A DNA stretch of 43,760 bases, from positions 38,446 through 82,205 of the forward strand of contig PMBT01000139.1 of assembly GCA_003153035.1 (NCBI GenBank), given 5' to 3'. The position numbers were made by a program, and so were the translations under genes. This document shows positions 1,167 to 12,744 of the stretch, in pieces. Source of the DNA: Opitutia bacterium. GTDB lineage: Bacteria > Verrucomicrobiota > Verrucomicrobiia > Opitutales > Opitutaceae. The stretch's first letter is position 1. Every line of letters starts with the position of its first letter. The notes beneath the pieces are model-generated. The model saw only the letters and a program-made list of their open reading frames with translations, did not search any database and was not told the DNA's origin.

Positions 1167-3350
1167 TCAGGGTTGGACGATGACCGTTTTCCGGAGGTTC
1201 AGGTCGGAGTCGCGCGAGGAGGTGCCGACAAGCAGTTCGACGGGACCCGACTCGACGGTCCAGGCATGGGAGGCAACGTCCCAGTAAGCGAGGTCGGCAG
1301 CGTGAACCGTGATCCGGGCGGTGCGCGTCTGGCCTGGTTCCACCGTGATGCGCTGAAAGCCCCGGAGCTGCTTGGGCGGGCGCTCGATTTTCGATTGCGG
1401 GTAGCGCACGTACAGCTGGACAACTTCGTCGCCCTTCCGGCTGCCGGTGTTGGCGACATCCATGCTGACCACAACTGATCCGTCGCGTGGCAGCGTGCCT
1501 GCAGATTGCAGATTGGAGAGCTTGAAGCTCGTGTAACTCAAGCCGTAGCCGAACGGGTATTGCGGCTCCTTGTCCGAGTACATGTAGGTGCGACCATGAC
1601 GAATGTCGAAGTCGTCCATCGGCGGAAGCTGGTCGAGGGACTTGGGCCAGGTCTGGACAGTCTTGCCGCCTGGATTGTAGTCGCCGAAGAGCACATCGGC
1701 AAGGGCGTTGCCTTGCTCCTGGCTGGCGTGCGTGATCTGCAGGATCGCCGGAGCGTTCGCGGCGGCCCAGGGCATCGCGTAAGGGAAATTCGCGACCAGG
1801 ACGACGACGGTTCGGGGATTCGCCGCGCAGACTTTGCGGATAAACGACTCCTGGTCGGGCTGCAGGACGATGTCCTTGCGGTCCACGGCCTCCTTGCCTT
1901 CGCTGGGCGAGGTGACGATCTCCCAGCCGGCGTTGCTTTCCGGATGGTTGCCGATGCAAACAACCGCGATGTCGCGCTTCCTTGCCTCCTCGATGGCCAC
2001 ATCGCTCATGTCGGCGGCCCAATTAGTGTCAAACTTGGCCGGGCCGAAGATGAAGGGTTGCGCATAATCCTCGATCCCTTCGCGGGGAGATACGCGATAC
2101 GGTGGCGTGCCCGAGTAGTAGTCGAGCAGGACGGTATTGGCCATCGGCCCGACGACGGCCACGGACTTGATTTTCGCGGGATCGATGGGGAGCAGTCCCT
2201 GGTCGTTCCTGAGCAGGACAATCGATCTGCGGGTGACCTCGCGGACGAAGGCGCGAGTGGCCGAATCGTTCCACGGCTCCGGCCCGGCTTCGCGCCCAAT
2301 CTTCGCGTAGGGCACTCTCTCAGGAGGATCGAGCAGTCCCAGATTGATGAAGAGCCGGAATTTCCCGCGCAGGGCCTGGTCGAGGTCGCGCTCGCTGAGC
2401 AGGCCGCGATGGAGGGCTTCGGTGACCGGCTCCTTGCTGCGATCGAGAAAGAGGTTGATTCCCGCCTTGATGCAGGCGGCCGCGGCTTCCGGCAGGCCGG
2501 GGAAGGCCTTGTGCTCGTTGACGAGGTTGCTCATTCCGCCGCCGTCGGTGCAGATGATGCCGTCGAGTCCCCACTCCTTCATCACGATCTCCCGCAGCAT
2601 CGGGTGCACATGGGCGGGAATGCCGTTGATGGCGTTGTAAGCCGCCATCATGGCGTTGGCCTTGCCCTCGCGAATGGCCATCTCGAACGGCTTGGCGTAA
2701 TATTCGCGCCAGAGGCGTTCATCGAAGTCCGCCGAAAAGTGGACTCGCCCGTCCTCGTGGCTGTTGGCGAGGAAATGTTTCAGCAGGCTGGCGGTCTTGA
2801 GGTACTTCGGATCGTCGCCCTGCAGGCCTTTGGAAAAGGCGATCGCGAGCGAGCCGACCAGAAACGGGTCCTCGCCATACACCTCCTCCGTGCGACCCCA
2901 GCGGGGATCGCGGGCCAGGTCGGCGTTCGGGGCCATGATGATCAATCCGGAGCGCTTGTATTTCTCGCTTTGAAACAGGTAGCGGGCCTCCAGGGCTTCC
3001 TGCGCGGCAACCCGCTGAATCAGTTCGGGATCCCAGGTCGAGGCGAGGCCATAGGCCTGCGGAAATTGGGTGGTGGCGGTGGGGTTCATCTTGCCCCAGT
3101 TGCTTGGTCCGCCCTGGGCCACGCCATGATAGCCTTCGGCGGTGAAGGTGCCGGCCACTCCCAGGCGGGATACCGATGGCATGAAACCGAGGCAGTCGAT
3201 CTTCTCCCCGAGGGTCATGCGCCCGATGAGATCGTCGATGCGCTGCTCCTTCGGCAGATCGGGGTTGCGGAAGGGGTAGTCGTAGGTCGGGGCGGCGCCG
3301 GCCGTGCCGGCCCCGAGCAGCACCGCGAGAATGACGGGGTGGATTCTCAT
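1167..3350 (-). CDS. GH3 beta-glycosidase (beta-glucosidase / beta-xylosidase type), secreted
   Basis: Exo-acting family 3 glycoside hydrolase of 727 residues that removes sugars from the non-reducing ends of oligosaccharides. The start used here gives MRIHPVILAVLLGAGTAGAA, a clean signal peptide. An in-frame ATG 57 bases upstream would only add a non-hydrophobic tail. Order of parts: GH3 N-terminal barrel (about 20-340) with the nucleophile Asp at D269 in WGLDGIICTDGGG; the C-terminal alpha/beta sandwich (about 365-590); and a fibronectin-III-like cap (about 640-720, around LRGFQRITVEPGQTRT). The EGYHGV and DPRWGR motifs place it with the bacterial xylosidase/glucosidase-like GH3 enzymes. 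It sits 70 bases downstream of the GH5 gene and 39 upstream of GH26, so it probably finishes the oligosaccharides those endo-enzymes release. The exact sugar cannot be read from sequence. Confidence 0.95.
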   Translation of the reverse strand: MRIHPVILAVLLGAGTAGAAPTYDYPFRNPDLPKEQRIDDLIGRMTLGEKIDCLGFMPSVSRLGVAGTFTAEGYHGVAQGGPSNWGKMNPTATTQFPQAYGLASTWDPELIQRVAAQEALEARYLFQSEKYKRSGLIIMAPNADLARDPRWGRTEEVYGEDPFLVGSLAIAFSKGLQGDDPKYLKTASLLKHFLANSHEDGRVHFSADFDERLWREYYAKPFEMAIREGKANAMMAAYNAINGIPAHVHPMLREIVMKEWGLDGIICTDGGGMSNLVNEHKAFPGLPEAAAACIKAGINLFLDRSKEPVTEALHRGLLSERDLDQALRGKFRLFINLGLLDPPERVPYAKIGREAGPEPWNDSATRAFVREVTRRSIVLLRNDQGLLPIDPAKIKSVAVVGPMANTVLLDYYSGTPPYRVSPREGIEDYAQPFIFGPAKFDTNWAADMSDVAIEEARKRDIAVVCIGNHPESNAGWEIVTSPSEGKEAVDRKDIVLQPDQESFIRKVCAANPRTVVVLVANFPYAMPWAAANAPAILQITHASQEQGNALADVLFGDYNPGGKTVQTWPKSLDQLPPMDDFDIRHGRTYMYSDKEPQYPFGYGLSYTSFKLSNLQSAGTLPRDGSVVVSMDVANTGSRKGDEVVQLYVRYPQSKIERPPKQLRGFQRITVEPGQTRTARITVHAADLAYWDVASHAWTVESGPVELLVGTSSRDSDLNLRKTVIVQP

Positions 3351-3420
3351 GATGGGAGTGCCTGCGCAATGGTCGGACAGAAGGCGGATCCGCGATTGGT
3401 TCATCATGGATGGTACCGGG

Positions 3421-4842
3421 CTACTGGATCTTGCCGTTCATCGCCGCCTTGGCGAATTCTCCCGATGCATTGAGCTCGTAGTTCCAATTCTTGATCAGCG
3501 TCGGTCCCCACGTCGGATCGAAGCACCACACCGTCCAACTAATGCCTTTCCCCTCCAGATACTTGATGATCTCCGGACCATAGGTGGCGTTGCGCGCGCC
3601 CGGACCGGTCGGCGACGACGCGGGTGTTTCACTGTTCGGCGGCGGTGGCTTCGGGAACCCGCCGAATTCAGTGGCGATGACGGGGTACTTGTCTGCAACA
3701 AAGCCGAAATCCAGCTCCCACTTTGGCTCCCAGGGTTGCGGCCGCTTGTTGGCATAGGGGTGGACGGAGTACGCGATGCGCTCCGCGGCGATCGGATCGA
3801 GGCGGACGGGCGTCAGATCGTACGCCCAGTCGAATCCGGCCACCACCGGGATTGCCTGGGGATCGGCCGCGCGGATCATCGTGATTTCGCTTTCCACGAG
3901 CTTCTTCCAGTCGCCCCAGGTAACCGGTCCCAACTGATCGCGATAGGTGGTGGGTTCATTGAAGAGCTCAAAGAAAACGACTGTGTTGTGGCCAGCGAAA
4001 TGCCGGGCCATGATCCGCCAGAAATTGAAGGTTTCCTTCCGGGTCGTGTCATACATCGGGTCCTGAAAGACCTCCGTCTCGAGGTTCCCGATGCTGTGCC
4101 AGTCCAGCATGACATACATTTCGAGCTCCGTGCACCAGCCGACGGCCTGATCGAGCAGCTTGAGGTATTCAGCCGGCGTGCGTTCGCGCCAGGCGACGGG
4201 ATGGATGGGGATGCGGACCAGTTTTGTGCCCATCTCCTTGACCTTGATGAAATGCTCCTTGCTCCAATGCCCCTGCATTTCGAGCTTGTCTGGGTCCGAG
4301 ATCGCCAATCCGCGGAAGAGGACCGTGTTGCCGTTCGGGTCCACGAACTTGTTTCCTTTGACCGAGATCAAAGGCAGTTTCTTGCTGTCGACCGTGTAGG
4401 GTCGCTGACCCGGAACCCGGTCCCGCCACCACGCATGGGTCCGGGGTGCGCTCGGCGGACTCGAGTCCACCGCCTTGGCCGGCTCGTCCTTCGCCCGGGT
4501 CAGGTTCATCTTCATCCCGTCGCCGAAGCCCACGACCTCCATCGAGATTTCGTCGTCCGAGACGAGCTGGCATTTGTACTCGATGGCATTGCCGTCAAAC
4601 TCGATCGCGAAGCCGAACGCCGAGCCGTTCACCTTGCCGCGCTTGATCTCATTGGCGCCCATCGGGGAGTCGACCGTGCCGGTCAACTGGTCGCCCTTGA
4701 CGGCAAAGGTGAAGAACAGATCGGGACCGGTGCCGCCGTCCGGCGAGGGCAGCGAGGTCTTCCATCTCCCATTGATATTTCCGGCGAACGCCCCCGCGGT
4801 CGAGCCGGCGAGCAGCAGCAAGGCAAGCACCCAGTTTTTCAT
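3421..4842 (-). CDS. GH5 endo-glycanase with N-terminal beta-barrel-like domain, secreted
   Basis: Family 5 glycoside hydrolase of 473 residues, a secreted endo-beta-glucanase or endo-mannanase. The chosen ATG gives MKNWVLALLLLAGSTAGAFA, an obvious signal peptide; the 84 codons open upstream look non-coding. After the signal comes an about 100-residue beta-rich domain (GNINGRWKTS to MKMNLTRAK) that resembles small lipid- or sugar-binding sandwich modules seen fused to Verrucomicrobial hydrolases; I cannot name its family. The GH5 barrel then shows FRGLAI, RIPIHPVAW and MLDWHS, the acid/base E296 in FFELFNEP and the nucleophile E393 in VIATEFGG. It lies between the GH42-like gene (167 bases upstream) and GH3 (70 bases downstream). 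With GH26 beside it, a role in beta-mannan cleavage is plausible, but cellulase activity is also possible. Confidence 0.93.
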   Translation of the reverse strand: MKNWVLALLLLAGSTAGAFAGNINGRWKTSLPSPDGGTGPDLFFTFAVKGDQLTGTVDSPMGANEIKRGKVNGSAFGFAIEFDGNAIEYKCQLVSDDEISMEVVGFGDGMKMNLTRAKDEPAKAVDSSPPSAPRTHAWWRDRVPGQRPYTVDSKKLPLISVKGNKFVDPNGNTVLFRGLAISDPDKLEMQGHWSKEHFIKVKEMGTKLVRIPIHPVAWRERTPAEYLKLLDQAVGWCTELEMYVMLDWHSIGNLETEVFQDPMYDTTRKETFNFWRIMARHFAGHNTVVFFELFNEPTTYRDQLGPVTWGDWKKLVESEITMIRAADPQAIPVVAGFDWAYDLTPVRLDPIAAERIAYSVHPYANKRPQPWEPKWELDFGFVADKYPVIATEFGGFPKPPPPNSETPASSPTGPGARNATYGPEIIKYLEGKGISWTVWCFDPTWGPTLIKNWNYELNASGEFAKAAMNGKIQ

Positions 4843-5009: not shown

Positions 5010-6887
5010 TCACTTCAGACGAAAGGCGCGGAACGAGTGCGGCGGCACGGTCAGTGACATCGCATTTTTTTCGGGTTTTGGCGGCTGGCCCCACCGGACC
5101 ATGCTATTGCGCGTCTCGCCCTGGATGGTCTCGCCGGTGATCACATCCTGAATCTGCGGGTGGTCGAGACCGACGGTGACGGCCACCTTGACCGGCTCGT
5201 CGAGAAAGGACTCCACGACGAAGGTGCCGTTGTCGTAGACGAAGAGGCTGACCTTACCGGGTGCTTCGAGTTGCACCGGGAGGTGGGCGGTGATCGTGGC
5301 CCGGATACGGTTGAGCACGGGGGCGGGAAGGTTGTAGAAGTCCGAAAAATTGTCGGGAATGGTCAGCACATAGAGATGGCCGGTGGCGTAAGCGGCGTCG
5401 TGGAGCAGGGGCCAGCCGCTGTCGCCGTCGATCCCCGAGACGAGTTCCCAGGAGTCGTTGGTGAGGTATTCGATCTGGGGAATCAGGACGGAGCGCTGGC
5501 CCTCGATGAAGTTCCAGCCCACCGTGTAGCTCTTCACGTTGGCGACGCGCCCCGAGTCCCTGATTTCGGCAATGCGCGAGAGGCTCCGGTCCTGGAGCGC
5601 CTTCAGCAGGCCGGAAGTGATCACCACCTTCTTCCCGGCGACCAGTTGCTGCTCGATCCGGTCCACGATCGTGGGATCCGTCGCGGCCTGGGCGGTGAGG
5701 AGAATGATGGAGTCCCCGGCCGGGAATTCCGGCACGATGTTCATCGGGATGCCGGCGGTGCCGAGGTAGTTCTGGAGGAACGCCTCGTTCGTGGAGTGGA
5801 ACGGCTTGTAGGACTTCAAGCCGATGGGGTTGCCCAGCGCACCGAGCACCTTGTCCACCGCCTCGAAGCTCACGCCGGCAGCGCGGGCGAACGTGGTTGG
5901 GGTGACGATGCTGCCGTCGGGCTGCGGCACGGGCTTGAGCATCTCATCGAAGCTGAAGCTGGTGCCCTGATTCTGCCAGGGGCCGCGGAGCTGCGGACCG
6001 AAGGGCGTGAGCGCCCCCCGGAAATCGAAGAGGGTGATCTCGCGGGCCTTGGCGAACAGGGTCAGCCACAGCTGTTCCGCATAACGATCCATGGTGCGCG
6101 AGCCGTAGGTATCCACCCAGCCGCCGCCGTTGCGCCCCGGGGCAAGGTTCTCGAGGTAGCGGATGATGTTGTAGCTGAGGTAGGGTTGGAGGTGCTGCGC
6201 CGAGGTGACGGCGTCGCGCGTCTCCGTGCCGGTGTAGATGCCGTCGAACCGGCTGGGGCCATCCGCGAGGTTGAAGCCCAGGCCGGAGAAGTGGTCGTAC
6301 CAATTGGGGTATTTGATCACCACTTTGACCTTGGGGTTGACGGCCCGGGCGGCGCCAATGACCAGGTCGCGGGCGGCTCCAACCATCACCTCAAGGCGGT
6401 ACTCGGTCCAGGAACGGTTGCTGCGGGCCGCGATGTCCTGGGCGGACTTCGTCGAGGTGAAGAAAAAGTCGTCGAGAATGAACTCGTCGAAGTTCCGGGC
6501 GGCGTGCTCGGCGATGCTCTTCACCTTCGCCCGGTGCTCGGGGTTGGCATACGAGAAGGTCTCGAAGCGGTTGGCCTCGTCGACCGTGTAGGTGATGCCG
6601 CCGGCGACGGCGACGTGGTGCGCCGCAAAGAACGCCTTGGCCAGCTGCAGCGTGGCGTCGGGGACGATGAGACCATCGCGGTGCACCTCGAGATACACCT
6701 TGTCCACGTGAACCTGGGAGGAGATGGTCTTCCAGCGCGCCTCCAGCCAGGCCGGATCGCCCATGTGCGTAACTTCCTGGGCGCGGCAGTAGACCGCCAC
6801 CTTGAAATTGTCGTACGCGGGGAGCGAGGGGATAAACCCCAGTGCCACCGCTAGAACGAGCAGCGGGCGTTGATTGGGGAGTTTCAT
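5010..6887 (-). CDS. Secreted TIM-barrel protein with GH42-like layout, function unassigned
   Basis: A 625-residue secreted protein that I cannot place in a named family. The chosen ATG gives MKLPNQRPLLVLAVALGF, a signal peptide. Residues about 28-330 look like a beta/alpha barrel of the glycosidase superfamily: alternating strands such as VDKVYLEVHRDG, FDEFILDDFFFTST (D139, D140), VKVVIKYPNWYDHF and FDGIYTGTETRD (E222). Residues about 355-435 read as a Rossmann or glutamine-amidotransferase-like unit (AGDSIILLTAQAAT, GKKVVITSGLL), followed by a C-terminal beta-sandwich (about 538-625). That order is the one seen in GH42 beta-galactosidases, yet the usual GH42 catalytic signatures are not seen. 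D139/D140 and E222 are candidate catalytic residues by position only. As the first gene of the run leading to GH5, GH3 and GH26, it probably acts on the same polysaccharide. Confidence 0.8.
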   Translation of the reverse strand: MKLPNQRPLLVLAVALGFIPSLPAYDNFKVAVYCRAQEVTHMGDPAWLEARWKTISSQVHVDKVYLEVHRDGLIVPDATLQLAKAFFAAHHVAVAGGITYTVDEANRFETFSYANPEHRAKVKSIAEHAARNFDEFILDDFFFTSTKSAQDIAARSNRSWTEYRLEVMVGAARDLVIGAARAVNPKVKVVIKYPNWYDHFSGLGFNLADGPSRFDGIYTGTETRDAVTSAQHLQPYLSYNIIRYLENLAPGRNGGGWVDTYGSRTMDRYAEQLWLTLFAKAREITLFDFRGALTPFGPQLRGPWQNQGTSFSFDEMLKPVPQPDGSIVTPTTFARAAGVSFEAVDKVLGALGNPIGLKSYKPFHSTNEAFLQNYLGTAGIPMNIVPEFPAGDSIILLTAQAATDPTIVDRIEQQLVAGKKVVITSGLLKALQDRSLSRIAEIRDSGRVANVKSYTVGWNFIEGQRSVLIPQIEYLTNDSWELVSGIDGDSGWPLLHDAAYATGHLYVLTIPDNFSDFYNLPAPVLNRIRATITAHLPVQLEAPGKVSLFVYDNGTFVVESFLDEPVKVAVTVGLDHPQIQDVITGETIQGETRNSMVRWGQPPKPEKNAMSLTVPPHSFRAFRLK

Positions 6888-7220: not shown

Positions 7221-10200
7221 ATGACGACGATTGCAATGATTACAGATCCATCCGTTGCCGGACGCACCGCTGCCGGTCGGCAGGTCACCCGGATTCTGGT
7301 GGCGGCGCTCCTGTGCGCCGCCTCGGCATTCGCGGCCGGTGATTTCACCAGGGGAGTGGGCGTCTATCCGGGCGATCCGGCGGCATTCCACGGGCCGACA
7401 CTGGTCCCGGAGATCGCGACGTATCGCAATCTCGCACTGCATCGTCCGGCGACGGCCTCGAACAATTATGATTTCAGCCTGACCGCCCAGTTGATCACCG
7501 ACGGGATCATCGATCACCGTCTGCCCCGCTGGCTCGTCTGCTCGACCAGTTCCGGGGGAATCCTACCGAGGTCCGAACGCGAAAACCTCGTCGACCAGTA
7601 CCCGTCCACCGGGGTCGACATCACTGGCACCAGGGGATGGGTGCAGGTCGAACAGGAGGGGCGTTATGAACCCCGAACGGTCGACCACATTGAAGTAACC
7701 GCCAGCGCCCAAACCGACGACCAACAGCCCCAGCGCTGGACGTGCGTCGTTGACAGCTCCGACGATGGGAAGAACTGGACGGAACTCGGCCGGTCCAGCG
7801 GCGAGGAAAGCCTGGCCAGGGTCGCCTTCTGGCAACCCAAGCTGATCAAAGCTGCTTTTGACCTCGCGACTCCCGCGCCCGCCCGTTTCTACCGCGTCCA
7901 GATGGACGCCCCCTCGGTGACCGCCTGGCGTGTCGGCGGCCTCGATACGTTTGCCCAGGGACGGCCGGTCTACCTCGGCGGCCCCCATGATTTCACCAGT
8001 GCTTGGAAGAGCACCGGCAATGCCGCGGAATGGGTCCAGGTCGACCTGGGCGCCGTCTGCACCTTCGATCGGGTGGTTTTGCACTGGATCCAGCGCGCCG
8101 CCGAGGGCGCGATCCAGGTCTCCGACGACGGGGCGAACTGGCGGACCCTCCGGCCGCTCACGGCCACTGTCGACGAATATCCGCTGATCCCGTCGGCGAG
8201 CGGCCGCTACGTGCGGGTGCAGTTGGCGCGTCCCGCCGCACCCGACGGTTACATCCTGAGCGAACTGCAGGTCTTCGGGCGCGGCGGCCCCCTGCCCCGG
8301 GCCCAACCCGCCCCCACCCCGCGCCCCGGCGCACGGCAGGACCTCGTGCGCGGATCGTGGCGCATCCAGCGCGATTCGCTGGTGACGCTCGAGGGCGAGG
8401 CCCTCTCGCATCCCGGCGTGGCCTGCCAGGACTGGCTGCCAGCCACGGTGCCCGGCTCGGTGCTGGTGAGCTACTGGAACGCCGGCGCGTTGCCGGATCC
8501 CAACTACGGCGACAACCAGCTGCAGATCTCCGATTCATTCTTCAACGCGGATTTCTGGTATCGCGACGAGTTCACCATTCCTGCCCCGGGTCCCAGCCGG
8601 AAGGTCTGGCTTAATTTCGACGGAATCAACTGGAAGGCCGACGTGTATTTCAACGGCGCGCGCCTGGGCCGCATCGACGGCACCTTCTTGCGGGCGCGCT
8701 TCGACGTCACGACCCTCGCCCGCCTGGACGGGATCAACGCCCTCGCGGTTCGCATCCACAAGCCGGCCACACCCGGCACCGTTCGCGAAAAGACCGCCGA
8801 CGAACCGTGGAGCAATGGTGGCGCGCTCGGCGTGGACAATCCGAGCTTCCACGCCACCGCGGGCTGGGACTGGATTCCCAGCATCCGCGGACGCAATATC
8901 GGCATCTGGTCCGATGTCTATTTGACCACGACGGGGCCGGTGGTCCTGGAGCACCCGCTGGTCTCCACCAAGCTCCCGCTGCCCGAAACGAGCAGCGCTG
9001 ATCTGACGGTCGAGGTCACCCTGCGGAACACGGAATCCACGCCCGTGGCCGGGGTGCTGCGCGGTCAGTTCGGAGACGTGCATTTCGAGCAGGCCGTCGA
9101 GGTGCCCGCGACGGCATCCACGGTGGTCAGGCTCGATCCATCCTCGGTCGCCGCCTTGCACCTGCGCAACCCCCGGCTTTGGTGGCCCGTTGGCTACGGC
9201 GAACCGGATCTTTACGATGTGCGCCTCGCGTTCGATACCGCCGCGGGCGTGCCTTCCGATTCCACGATGTTCCGCGCCGGGGTGAAGCAGTTCACCTGCG
9301 CCGATGAAAACGGCGCGCTGAAGCTGTTCATCAACGGCCGCCGGTTCATCGGCCGCGGTGGCAATTGGGGCTTCTCGGAGTCCAATCTGCTTTACCGCGC
9401 CCGCGAATACGAGGCCGCCGTTCGCTATCACCGCGACTTGGGCTTCACGATGATCCGCAACTGGGTCGGCCAGGTCGGCGACGACGCCTTCTTCGAGGCC
9501 TGCGATCGCAACGGCGTCGTGGTCTGGCAGGATTTCTGGCTTGCCAACCCGCTGGACGGCCCGGACCCGGCCGACAACGCGATGTTTCTGCAGAACGCCG
9601 CCGACTTCATCTACCGGATTCGCAACCATCCCTCGGTGGGCCTCTATTGCGGGCGCAACGAGGGCAATCCGCCACCGACGCTCAATGACGGGCTCGCCCG
9701 GCTCGTCGCCACCCGTCACCCCGAGATTCGCTATATTCCGAGCTCGTCCTTCGGGGTCGTCAGCGGGGGCGGCCCCTACCACCTGATGCCGGTCAATTTC
9801 TACTTCGACCAGCGTGCCACGACCAAGCTGCACAGCGAACTCGGCATGGCGAACATTGTCACCCTAGACAGCCTCCGGCAAATGATGCCGGCGGCGGACC
9901 AGTGGCCCCAGGGCCGGGTCTGGGGCCTGCACGACTTCACAACGCGTGGGGCCGTGCGCGGAGGTTCCCTGCGGGAGACGATCGAGAAATCCTATGGGGA
10001 CGCGGCGAACGCGGCGGAGTGGGTCGAGCTCGCGCAGTTCACGAATTACGACGGGCATCGCGCGATGTTCGAGGCCCAGGGCAAACACCGCATGGGCATC
10101 CTCATGTGGATGAGCCATCCGTGCTGGCCCTCGTTTGTGTGGCAGACCTACGACTATTACCTTGAGCCCACCGCCGGCTACTTCGGGGCGAAGAAGGGCT

Positions 10201-10865
10201 GCGAACCCCTGCACGTTCAGTGGAACCCGCTGGACGGCACCGTCGAAGTCGTAAATTACAGCGCCGGCCACCGCCCCGGACTCAACGTCAAGGCCGCCAT
10301 CCTCAATGCGGACGGCACGGTGAAGGGGGAACAGACGGCGACGATCGACAGTGCCGAGGACAGCGTCCTCTCACCGATCAAGCTGGCCTTCCCGGCGAAC
10401 GGGCTGTCGCCCCTGCATTTTCTGCGGCTGACGCTCACCGAGGATGGTCGAACGATTTCGGAGAATACCTATCTGCGCAGTCTCTCGACCTACGAGATTC
10501 CCGGGTTTTCCTTCGGTCCGTTCCACCTCCCGGCCTACCCGGCATTTGATTTTCGCGTGATCCGCACGCTGCCGAAGGCGACCCTGCGCCGCGCCACCAC
10601 GGCCGAGCGTCAGGGCGACCGATGGATCTTGTCGACGGAACTCGAGAACACCTCGCAGACCCCGGCGCTGCTGGTCCGCCTGAAGGCGGTGCGGGAGCAG
10701 AGTGGCGACCGCATCCTTCCGGCCCTCCACGAGGACAATTTCATCACGCTGATGCCTGGTGAGAAACGCCTCCTCCGCACCGAACTGGAGCAGGCCGACA
10801 CCCGGGGCGAACGTCCCCGGATCGTGGTCGAAGGCTTCAACCTCGAGAATGCCAGCAGGCGATAG
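7221..10865 (+). CDS. GH2 beta-mannosidase-type enzyme with two discoidin-like modules, secreted
   Basis: A 1214-residue secreted exo-glycosidase of family 2, closest in layout to beta-mannosidases and exo-glucosaminidases. A signal segment with a long n-region (about 22-39, RILVAALLCAASAFAAG) is followed by two F5/8-type-C (discoidin) jelly-roll-like modules at about 68-240 (NLALHRPATAS opening) and 250-355 (WVQVDLGAVCTFDRVVLHW, GRYVRVQL). A proline-rich linker leads to the GH2 sugar-binding, Ig-like and barrel domains. In the barrel, GRNEG carries the probable acid/base E814 and KLHSELGM the nucleophile E873. The discoidin modules probably bind the polysaccharide or cell surface. It is divergent from the GH5/GH3/GH26 run and upstream of an MFS transporter, which fits release of monosaccharide for uptake. 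Mannosidase specificity is inferred from family resemblance and neighbours. Confidence 0.92.
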   Translation: MTTIAMITDPSVAGRTAAGRQVTRILVAALLCAASAFAAGDFTRGVGVYPGDPAAFHGPTLVPEIATYRNLALHRPATASNNYDFSLTAQLITDGIIDHRLPRWLVCSTSSGGILPRSERENLVDQYPSTGVDITGTRGWVQVEQEGRYEPRTVDHIEVTASAQTDDQQPQRWTCVVDSSDDGKNWTELGRSSGEESLARVAFWQPKLIKAAFDLATPAPARFYRVQMDAPSVTAWRVGGLDTFAQGRPVYLGGPHDFTSAWKSTGNAAEWVQVDLGAVCTFDRVVLHWIQRAAEGAIQVSDDGANWRTLRPLTATVDEYPLIPSASGRYVRVQLARPAAPDGYILSELQVFGRGGPLPRAQPAPTPRPGARQDLVRGSWRIQRDSLVTLEGEALSHPGVACQDWLPATVPGSVLVSYWNAGALPDPNYGDNQLQISDSFFNADFWYRDEFTIPAPGPSRKVWLNFDGINWKADVYFNGARLGRIDGTFLRARFDVTTLARLDGINALAVRIHKPATPGTVREKTADEPWSNGGALGVDNPSFHATAGWDWIPSIRGRNIGIWSDVYLTTTGPVVLEHPLVSTKLPLPETSSADLTVEVTLRNTESTPVAGVLRGQFGDVHFEQAVEVPATASTVVRLDPSSVAALHLRNPRLWWPVGYGEPDLYDVRLAFDTAAGVPSDSTMFRAGVKQFTCADENGALKLFINGRRFIGRGGNWGFSESNLLYRAREYEAAVRYHRDLGFTMIRNWVGQVGDDAFFEACDRNGVVVWQDFWLANPLDGPDPADNAMFLQNAADFIYRIRNHPSVGLYCGRNEGNPPPTLNDGLARLVATRHPEIRYIPSSSFGVVSGGGPYHLMPVNFYFDQRATTKLHSELGMANIVTLDSLRQMMPAADQWPQGRVWGLHDFTTRGAVRGGSLRETIEKSYGDAANAAEWVELAQFTNYDGHRAMFEAQGKHRMGILMWMSHPCWPSFVWQTYDYYLEPTAGYFGAKKGCEPLHVQWNPLDGTVEVVNYSAGHRPGLNVKAAILNADGTVKGEQTATIDSAEDSVLSPIKLAFPANGLSPLHFLRLTLTEDGRTISENTYLRSLSTYEIPGFSFGPFHLPAYPAFDFRVIRTLPKATLRRATTAERQGDRWILSTELENTSQTPALLVRLKAVREQSGDRILPALHEDNFITLMPGEKRLLRTELEQADTRGERPRIVVEGFNLENASRR

Positions 10866-11046
10866 CGCGCCCGGGCGGGGGCGGTTGTCGTGGTGATGCT
10901 TCCGTCGGCTGCCAGTGGTCCGGCGCCATGTTCTGACGCTTGACCCTGAGCCGCGAGATGACGGCGGCGCCGGCGGCCGCGCACCAAGAGGCTTGCCACG
11001 GAACGGCGGTGCCGCTCCTCTCTGCGGACCCTTTTCCCGACCCCAC

Positions 11047-12744
11047 ATGACCCTGCCAAAGCGCTCCTTCCTTCACCACGCCGTTTTTTGGGTGCCCACG
11101 CTCTACCTCGCGATGGGCATTCCGTTCAACGTGATCAACATCACGGCCTCGTCGATGTACAAGTCGCTCGGAGTCAGTGACGCGAAGAACACGGTGGCCC
11201 TCGGTAGCGTGATCATTGCCTGGTCGCTCAAGCCCCTTTGGGCCGCGTTCCTCGACATGTATCGCACGAAGAAATTCTTCGTGATCGCGATGGAGGTGCT
11301 GATTCCGCTGCTCTTCGCGGGGGTCGCGATGTCCCTGCCGCTGCCGGGTTATTTTCAGATCAGCATCGCCCTGCTCTGGGTCGCCTCTTTCGCCTCGTCG
11401 ACCCAGGACATCTGCGGCGACGGCATCTACCTCACCTCGCTCGACAAGAAAACGCAGGCCAGCCTCGCCGGTGTGCAGGGCATGTTCTGGAATCTCGGCA
11501 AGATACTGGCCACGGGCATGCTGGTCAGCGGCATGGAGCGGGTCGCGAACGCCCACGGCTGGTCCCTGCAGAAGATGTGGAGCGGGGTGTGGATCGTGAG
11601 CGCGCTCACGATGGCCGCTTTCGCCGTCTATCACATTTTCCTCCTGCCCACGGGGAGCATCGCCCACCGCCCGCACAGCACCAAGCAGGTGCTGGAGGAT
11701 TTCGTCGGCTCGGCGAAAACGTTTTTCCACAAGCGGGCCTTCTGGGGCATGATCGCCTTTGTGTTCCTCTACCGTCTCGGCGAGGGCCTGATCATGGTTG
11801 AGGGCAGACTCTTTATCCAGTCGACCACCGCCAGCGGGGGCCTTGGCCTGACCGCCGGCCAGGTGGCCAACATCGACGCGGTCTACGGCACCGTCGCGGC
11901 CATCACCGGTGGCATCCTCGGCGGACTCTTCCTGGGCAAGATCGGCCTCAAGAAGGCCCTGCCCTTCCTCGGTCTCTGCCTGAACATCCCGCACTTCACC
12001 TTCGTCTACCTCAGCCATTACGGGGCCGCAAATCACGGACTCGCCTACAGCGTCATCGTCACGATGGTGACGATTGAGAAGTTTGGCTACGGCTTCGGCT
12101 TCATCGGAAACATGGTTTACATGATGCAGCAGTTCGCCCCGGGGCGCTGCACCATGACCCACTACGCCTTCGCCACCGCCCTGATGAACTTCGTGCTCGC
12201 CCCCACGACCATGATCTCCGGCCCGCTGGCCGAATGGCTGGGCTTCTCGACTTTCTTCGTTGTGGTGATGTTCGCCTCGGTGCCCAGCGTCTGGGCCGCC
12301 TACAAGGCCCCCTTCCCGCTCGATGGCGACGATCACAAGGGCTCGTCCGACGACGAAGCCATTGGAGTCGTCATCACGCCCGACGATCCCACCCGGCTGA
12401 GCGCGGCCGAGCAACAGGTGCAGCGCACCGCCGGGCGCGCCTCCGTGTACGCCATGATCAACATTCTCGCGATCCTGATTCTCGATGCGAAAACCCTCGG
12501 TTCTTTGCAGGGCAAGGCGGCCGGCAACGGCCGGATCGAGTTTGGTCTGCTCGTCGCCTGCGCCGCCCTGAAGCTCTTTCTCTCGCTGCGCACCTACCAA
12601 TTCGCCAATCAAGCTGTCGCCGAGAGCGCCGCCTGTCCCGGCAACGCCTACCTCGCCAACGCGCGCGGGGCCAAGATCGCCACCTGGATTTGCGCGGTCG
12701 TGACGGTTGTCATCCTCCTCACCGGTTACCGGCTGGGAATGTGA
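11047..12744 (+). CDS. MFS transporter, AmpG-like, probable oligosaccharide/sugar importer
   Basis: Integral inner-membrane carrier of 565 residues in the major facilitator superfamily. The ATG used gives MTLPKRSFLHHAVFWVPTLYLA, running straight into the first membrane helix; codons open upstream of it look non-coding. About twelve or more hydrophobic segments can be followed, for example AVFWVPTLYLAMGI, FVIAMEVLIPLLFAGVAMS, MIAFVFLYRLGEGLI and the final ICAVVTVVILLTGYRL. The style resembles AmpG and related Verrucomicrobial and Bacteroidetes carriers (ASSMYKSLGVSDAKN, DICGDGIYLTSLD). It follows the GH2 gene by 181 bases on the same strand, so it probably brings in a product of the mannan-type hydrolases. 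No SusC/SusD pair is present, which makes this the only transporter candidate for the island. The substrate is inferred from context. Confidence 0.9.
   Translation: MTLPKRSFLHHAVFWVPTLYLAMGIPFNVINITASSMYKSLGVSDAKNTVALGSVIIAWSLKPLWAAFLDMYRTKKFFVIAMEVLIPLLFAGVAMSLPLPGYFQISIALLWVASFASSTQDICGDGIYLTSLDKKTQASLAGVQGMFWNLGKILATGMLVSGMERVANAHGWSLQKMWSGVWIVSALTMAAFAVYHIFLLPTGSIAHRPHSTKQVLEDFVGSAKTFFHKRAFWGMIAFVFLYRLGEGLIMVEGRLFIQSTTASGGLGLTAGQVANIDAVYGTVAAITGGILGGLFLGKIGLKKALPFLGLCLNIPHFTFVYLSHYGAANHGLAYSVIVTMVTIEKFGYGFGFIGNMVYMMQQFAPGRCTMTHYAFATALMNFVLAPTTMISGPLAEWLGFSTFFVVVMFASVPSVWAAYKAPFPLDGDDHKGSSDDEAIGVVITPDDPTRLSAAEQQVQRTAGRASVYAMINILAILILDAKTLGSLQGKAAGNGRIEFGLLVACAALKLFLSLRTYQFANQAVAESAACPGNAYLANARGAKIATWICAVVTVVILLTGYRLGM

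Follow-up and report, generated by a model that had tools for sequence, protein, structure and literature searches.

GH42 beta-galactosidases are built from a TIM barrel, a trimerisation domain and a beta-sandwich, with an Asn-Glu acid/base on beta4 and a Glu nucleophile on beta7. The same three domains make up the GH164 beta-mannosidase Bs164 (PDB 6t5o, 6t7g), whose catalytic pair was reported to be Glu160 on beta4 and Glu297 on beta7 (PMC7105311). Op5Man5 (GH5, 7bob), from Opitutaceae TAV5, is a trimer of GH42-type architecture and uses the GH5 catalytic residues Glu156 and Glu281. The GH151 enzyme ALfuk2 (6tvk) is an alpha-L-fucosidase of the same three-domain order, with an active-site His supplied by the adjacent monomer. 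In GH151, D154 on beta4 acts as nucleophile and E235 on beta6 as acid/base (PMC10154630). The solved barrels of Cwp19 (GHL10) and PgaB (GH153) lack a middle domain and a sandwich. The beta4 motif of Cwp19 has its first Asp buried, and its second, D196, takes the GH42 acid/base position (PMC5765458). GH26A of Muricauda was described from a locus for galactoglucomannan, in which a GH5_26 glucanase is encoded as well (PMC9860051).

Gene X is located at 5010..6887 on the minus strand of the window, the whole analysed stretch of 43,760 nucleotides from an Opitutia bacterium of the Opitutaceae. The reading frame starts with ATG at 6887, ends with a stop at 5010, and comprises 625 codons. The product, a secreted protein of 625 aa, has a TIM barrel, a Rossmann-like domain and a beta-sandwich and is a putative glycoside hydrolase whose family has no public model. 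The preliminary description had placed the gene correctly at 5010-6887, and the coding strand is the minus strand. Plus-strand frames over this interval are antisense frames only and were rejected as a gene. Likewise, the cluster of about 266 aa that is conserved opposite many homologues is the antisense of the gene X family itself and represents no second gene. The N-terminus, MKLPNQRPLLVLAVALGFIPSLPA, reads by eye as a Sec-type signal peptide (residues 1-24; 6816..6887, minus strand) with no lipobox, in agreement with the signal peptide claimed earlier. Residues 1-17 have low pLDDT in the AlphaFold2 model. A lipobox-like motif occurs in only 5 of 80 homologues.

The AlphaFold2 model of the protein has a mean pLDDT of 91.8 and a pTM of 0.90. 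The putative catalytic domain is an eight-stranded TIM barrel according to predicted secondary structure (residues 28-345; 5853..6806, minus strand), and reached pLDDT 90.9 when modelled alone. It is followed by a Rossmann/amidotransferase-like middle domain (residues 349-541; 5265..5843, minus strand), with boundaries from predicted secondary structure, and by a C-terminal beta-sandwich (residues 542-625; 5013..5264, minus strand), delimited by the AlphaFold2 model and structural alignment. The equivalent of residues 349-541 in GH42 and GH164 is the trimerisation domain. Foldseek with the full-length model gave GH164 Bs164 (E 1.9e-21) and GH42 enzymes as best matches. VIA-align of the full-length model yielded Z of about 20 for GH42 (490-518 residues) and for GH164 (about 510 residues), and Z 18.7 for GH151 ALfuk2 (6tvk; rmsd 4.5, 515 residues, 13% identity). 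Identity to all full-length structural matches (GH164, GH42, GH151) is just 9-13%. For the isolated barrel the ranking was Cwp19 (Z 21.6), GH42 (20.9), GH164 (20.5), PgaB (19.3) and GH151 (18.1); families not listed by the fold search, such as GH29 and GH139, are unlisted rather than excluded. The GH42 order of barrel, Rossmann/amidotransferase-like domain and sandwich, proposed beforehand, is borne out by the model, about 500 residues of which align to GH42 and GH164 crystal structures. Structure prediction and structural search, for which GH42 or a clan-A barrel had been expected, returned a TIM barrel in a GH42-like order of domains, with GH42 among the matches. The shared fold alone is no proof of catalysis in gene X.

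Relatives of gene X are encoded in 309 stretches found by a pattern scan of GTDB representatives. The best 80 of the 309 are 50-66% identical, nearly full-length and of near-constant length, and the gene X finding is therefore no chance product. Most occur in Bacteroidota (Bacteroidales, Prolixibacteraceae, Prevotella), others in Opitutaceae, Acidobacteria, Phycisphaerae, KSB1 and marine Bacteroidota. In even samples the family is rare, being present in 11 of 288 Verrucomicrobiota genomes and 5 of 296 Bacteroidota genomes. The source genome holds several paralogues. One of them (L120, G000:C140:23552-25275; about 42-48% identity) is split over two reading frames and looks broken or mis-assembled. 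Distant relatives of about 390-410 aa from Verrucomicrobiota (L188, L189, L190) retain the barrel together with every key residue, while the Rossmann-like domain is seemingly absent. In a tree of 65 family proteins, gene X clusters with three others, at least two of them from the same order. This group lies near Bacteroidota homologues and apart from the other Opitutaceae paralogues (47-52% identity), a position that may reflect transfer between phyla.

No Pfam family matches the gene X protein at E 10, and searches of NCBIfam and PDB sequences gave nothing meaningful. Fifty-eight family members searched singly against Pfam (listed to E 1) and NCBIfam 20.0 (June 2026) also gave nothing convincing; weak single-member matches (PreAtp-grasp, SupH-like_C, YajC, DaglGlyslTfaseDgs) were scattered and were rejected. 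The profile of the 58-member alignment detected no glycosidase among all PDB sequences at E up to 10, and literature searches returned no description of the family. The GH42 model PF02449 matched neither gene X (E 10) nor appeared among the families listed for the 58 members (E 1); in the source genome it found eight other places, gene X not among them. Gene X belongs to a family without a Pfam or NCBIfam model and without a solved structure. Of the earlier suggestion of a possible new family, the lack of a confident match by sequence to a glycosidase family stands, and the novelty holds with respect to Pfam, NCBIfam and PDB only.

Gene X opens an operon with the order X, GH5 (26-like), GH3, GH26, GH9 and DUF2961, all on one strand. 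The GH26, GH9 and DUF2961 genes are outside the window. The operon with GH5, GH3 and GH26 that had been noted before is real, and it continues with GH9 and DUF2961 beyond the window. The GH5 gene is next after X (3421..4842, minus strand; PF00150, E 2.2e-35; start taken at MKNWVLALLLL). Its product is closest to PDB 8bn7, 4hty and 5a8m (phmmer E 4e-104 to 2e-90), which we take to be GH5_26-type beta-1,4-glucanases. Ahead of the GH5 barrel lies an N-terminal domain (NINGRWKTSLPSP...; about 100 residues) that no Pfam family matches. The third gene encodes a GH3 beta-glycosidase (1167..3407, minus strand; PF00933, PF01915, PF14310). The GH26 is closest to 6q75 GH26A, presumably the Muricauda enzyme. 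The GH9 beside X (L119:3342-6206, contig C102, left of the window; also L067:5388-7910) carries, ahead of CelD_N, an N-terminal extension of roughly 300 residues for which Pfam has no match. Extended GH9 is conserved from Opitutaceae to Bacteroides and is common to the source genome, Acidobacteria and Bacteroidota. The operon is closed by the DUF2961 gene (L119:2109-3308), presumably a GH172 and as such unusual in a mannan or glucan locus. Within the window, 7221-10865 encodes a divergently oriented GH2 protein that has F5/8C domains and an Ig domain of the exo-beta-glucosaminidase type and may be a beta-mannosidase of the same locus. At 10915-12744 an AmpG-like MFS transporter adjoins glycosidase genes. 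A role for X as stand-in for a missing alpha-galactosidase was considered and is weakened by the GH27 genes present elsewhere in the source genome.

GH9 is the commonest same-strand partner of X homologues (19 of the 85 neighbour proteins scanned); in about 20 of 94 loci the two genes are adjacent and share their orientation. Its recurrence beside X across phyla points to glucomannan or beta-1,4-glucan. Other recurring neighbours are cellobiose 2-epimerase-like proteins, GH3, GH31, GH2 and SusC/SusD. The glucomannan link is not universal, because many Prevotella homologues sit among unrelated genes.

Of 35 profiles compared with the family by hhalign, GH151 ranked first, with a probability of 44% and an E of 2.4e-4; its alignment covers 461 collinear columns between residues 76 and 595. 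The GH151 profile was built on related genomes, from their GHL6 (PF14871) proteins, and this GHL6 set was identified as GH151 because a member matches 6tvk at E 3.6e-119. The other probabilities were 16% for a second GHL6 set, 13% for GH9 (the best unrelated control), 4% for GH42, and 0.4% and 1.2% for GHL10, with the remaining profiles below 4%. When the family consensus FDExILDDFFFTSCKCxxC is set against GH151 DGIFLDIVGERTCYCTTC, the spacing from D139 or D154 to the CxCxxC cluster is equal within one residue. The cluster is present in many homologues and is lost from the gene X protein. PF14871 itself gave no match to gene X or to the 58 members, and 6tvk was not found by the family profile among PDB sequences. 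The GH42-like domain order previously proposed holds, with the refinement that the nearest family by sequence, as ranked by hhalign, is GH151 and not GH42.

All 65 aligned family sequences, among them relatives with as little as about 25% identity, have D139, D140, K192, E222, R224, W257, D259 and Q272 without exception. D139-D140 (6468..6473, minus strand) are at the end of beta4. Within a profile match that is below normal confidence, hhalign aligns D139 with D154, the nucleophile of GH151; by the Asp-Asp-aromatic motif, D140 corresponds to D196 of Cwp19, at the GH42 acid/base position. K192 ends beta5. E222 (6222..6224, minus strand) and R224 come after beta6 (216-221); E222, at the strand end, has the position of GH151 E235, a pairing by strand only, as the profile alignment does not place E222 on E235. 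W257 and D259 (6111..6113, minus strand) end beta7 (253-259), D259 standing where clan GH-A enzymes have their nucleophile on this strand. The preliminary description named D139, D140 and E222 as the best catalytic candidates and predicted that they would be conserved at the barrel mouth. Their invariance and their location at the ends of beta4 and beta6 agree with this, although a fourth invariant carboxylate, D259, was overlooked. It was also right that the GH42 acid/base and nucleophile contexts are absent, as there is no GH42 signature and Asp is found at the beta4 and beta7 ends in all 65 sequences.

That the secreted protein cleaves sugars of the plant cell wall is very likely. The reading preferred here, with chances about evenly balanced, is that the product of gene X is an exo-acting glycoside hydrolase, secreted or periplasmic, and a remote relative of GH151 with D139 and E222 as catalytic pair. 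A retaining mechanism would be most likely, D139 serving as nucleophile and E222 as acid/base, and D140, K192, R224, W257 and D259 would shape the -1 subsite. The enzyme would probably be trimeric like the GH42 and GH164 enzymes. It would trim oligosaccharides freed from glucomannan or beta-1,4-glucan by the GH26, GH5 and GH9 enzymes.

A clan GH-A- or GHL10-like chemistry, with D140 as general acid (or acid/base), D259 as nucleophile or base and a beta-linked sugar such as beta-mannose, is possible but rather unlikely. The similarity of the isolated barrel to Cwp19, GH42 and GH164 is in its favor, as is the resemblance of LDDF in gene X to IDDYFY of GHL10, and the D140/D259 pair is retained because the second Asp of the GHL10-like motif has the GH42 acid/base position (D196 of Cwp19; PMC5765458). 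D259 is also invariant and ends beta7, the strand that bears the GH164 nucleophile (PMC7105311). GH164 and Op5Man5, which share the architecture of X, are exo-beta-mannosidases, and the operon includes a GH26. However, clan GH-A uses two glutamates and X has Asp at both positions, the GHL10 and GH42 profiles reach at most 4% against the family, far under GH151, and a D140/D259 pair would leave the invariant E222 without a catalytic role. As a relative by sequence, GHL10 was also rejected: despite a suggestive beta4 motif its profile score is at background level, and PF02638 matched neither gene X nor the 58 members and found nothing in the source genome.

The absence of the GH42 and GH164 catalytic glutamates, and the fact that activity of family members is a prediction, would also suit an inactive, glycosidase-derived barrel that binds plant glycans at the surface or in the periplasm. 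This is highly improbable, since four carboxylates together with Lys and Arg at the strand ends are fixed in sequences as distant as about 25% identity, as is typical of a catalytic site. Surface glycan-binding proteins of Bacteroidota are lipoproteins, and the homologues are mostly without a lipobox. A matter of naming only, compatible with either mechanism, is whether X is a divergent member of a numbered CAZy family or subfamily that is unrepresented in Pfam, NCBIfam and PDB. New families enter CAZy at a faster pace than Pfam, and the comparison covered Pfam, NCBIfam and PDB rather than CAZy/dbCAN models; the empty results of NCBIfam 20.0 for the 58 members, of the PDB profile search at E up to 10 and of the literature speak against such membership, which is possible but rather unlikely. 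If active, the protein would contribute a so far unassigned step to the degradation of glucomannan or beta-glucan, and its family would be a candidate for CAZy. Family members come from Verrucomicrobiota and from Bacteroidota of the gut, the rumen and the environment, repeatedly next to cellulase genes, and escape Pfam/NCBIfam annotation.

By sequence, the gene X protein is no member of GH151, GH42 or GH164, and its relation to GH151 is read as remote homology, not family membership. It shares with the GH42 beta-galactosidases and Bs164 all three domains, but the GH42 Asn-Glu and Glu and the GH164 Glu160 and Glu297 are replaced by Asp139-Asp140 and Asp259 in all members; identity to Bs164 is 9-10%, and the family profile, run on all PDB sequences, did not hit the Bs164 chains at E 10. 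Op5Man5 is likewise an Opitutaceae enzyme of GH42-type architecture, but differs in its GH5 glutamates and is 10% identical. The beta4 Asp-Asp-aromatic motif in a TIM barrel, which includes D140, is shared with Cwp19/GHL10, whereas Cwp19 has Gly on beta7 where gene X has Asp259, and the solved Cwp19 and PgaB barrels differ in lacking the two further domains. PgaB has a similar barrel, but its chains were not found by the family profile against PDB at E 10. ALfuk2 resembles gene X in domain order, in the beta4 Asp and CxCxxC at near-equal spacing, and, by strand position, in the Glu ending beta6. It differs in having a single Asp on beta4 instead of Asp-Asp, and the GH151 stretches H-x-E-x-E-S-L-P-T and W-G-E-F-G-G are absent from the gene X family. 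This mixture of active-site positions would permit a direct test of how a GH42-type scaffold switched catalytic residues. Tentatively, and with less than an even chance, gene X may be the founding example of a glycoside hydrolase family still absent from CAZy that combines a GH42-type trimeric scaffold with a GH151-type beta4 Asp/beta6 Glu pair and an extra beta4/beta7 Asp pair, forming a sequence and structural bridge from the clan GH-A scaffold to the GH29/GH151-type active site. Its linkage specificity in the breakdown of glucomannan or beta-glucan would then be a new one.
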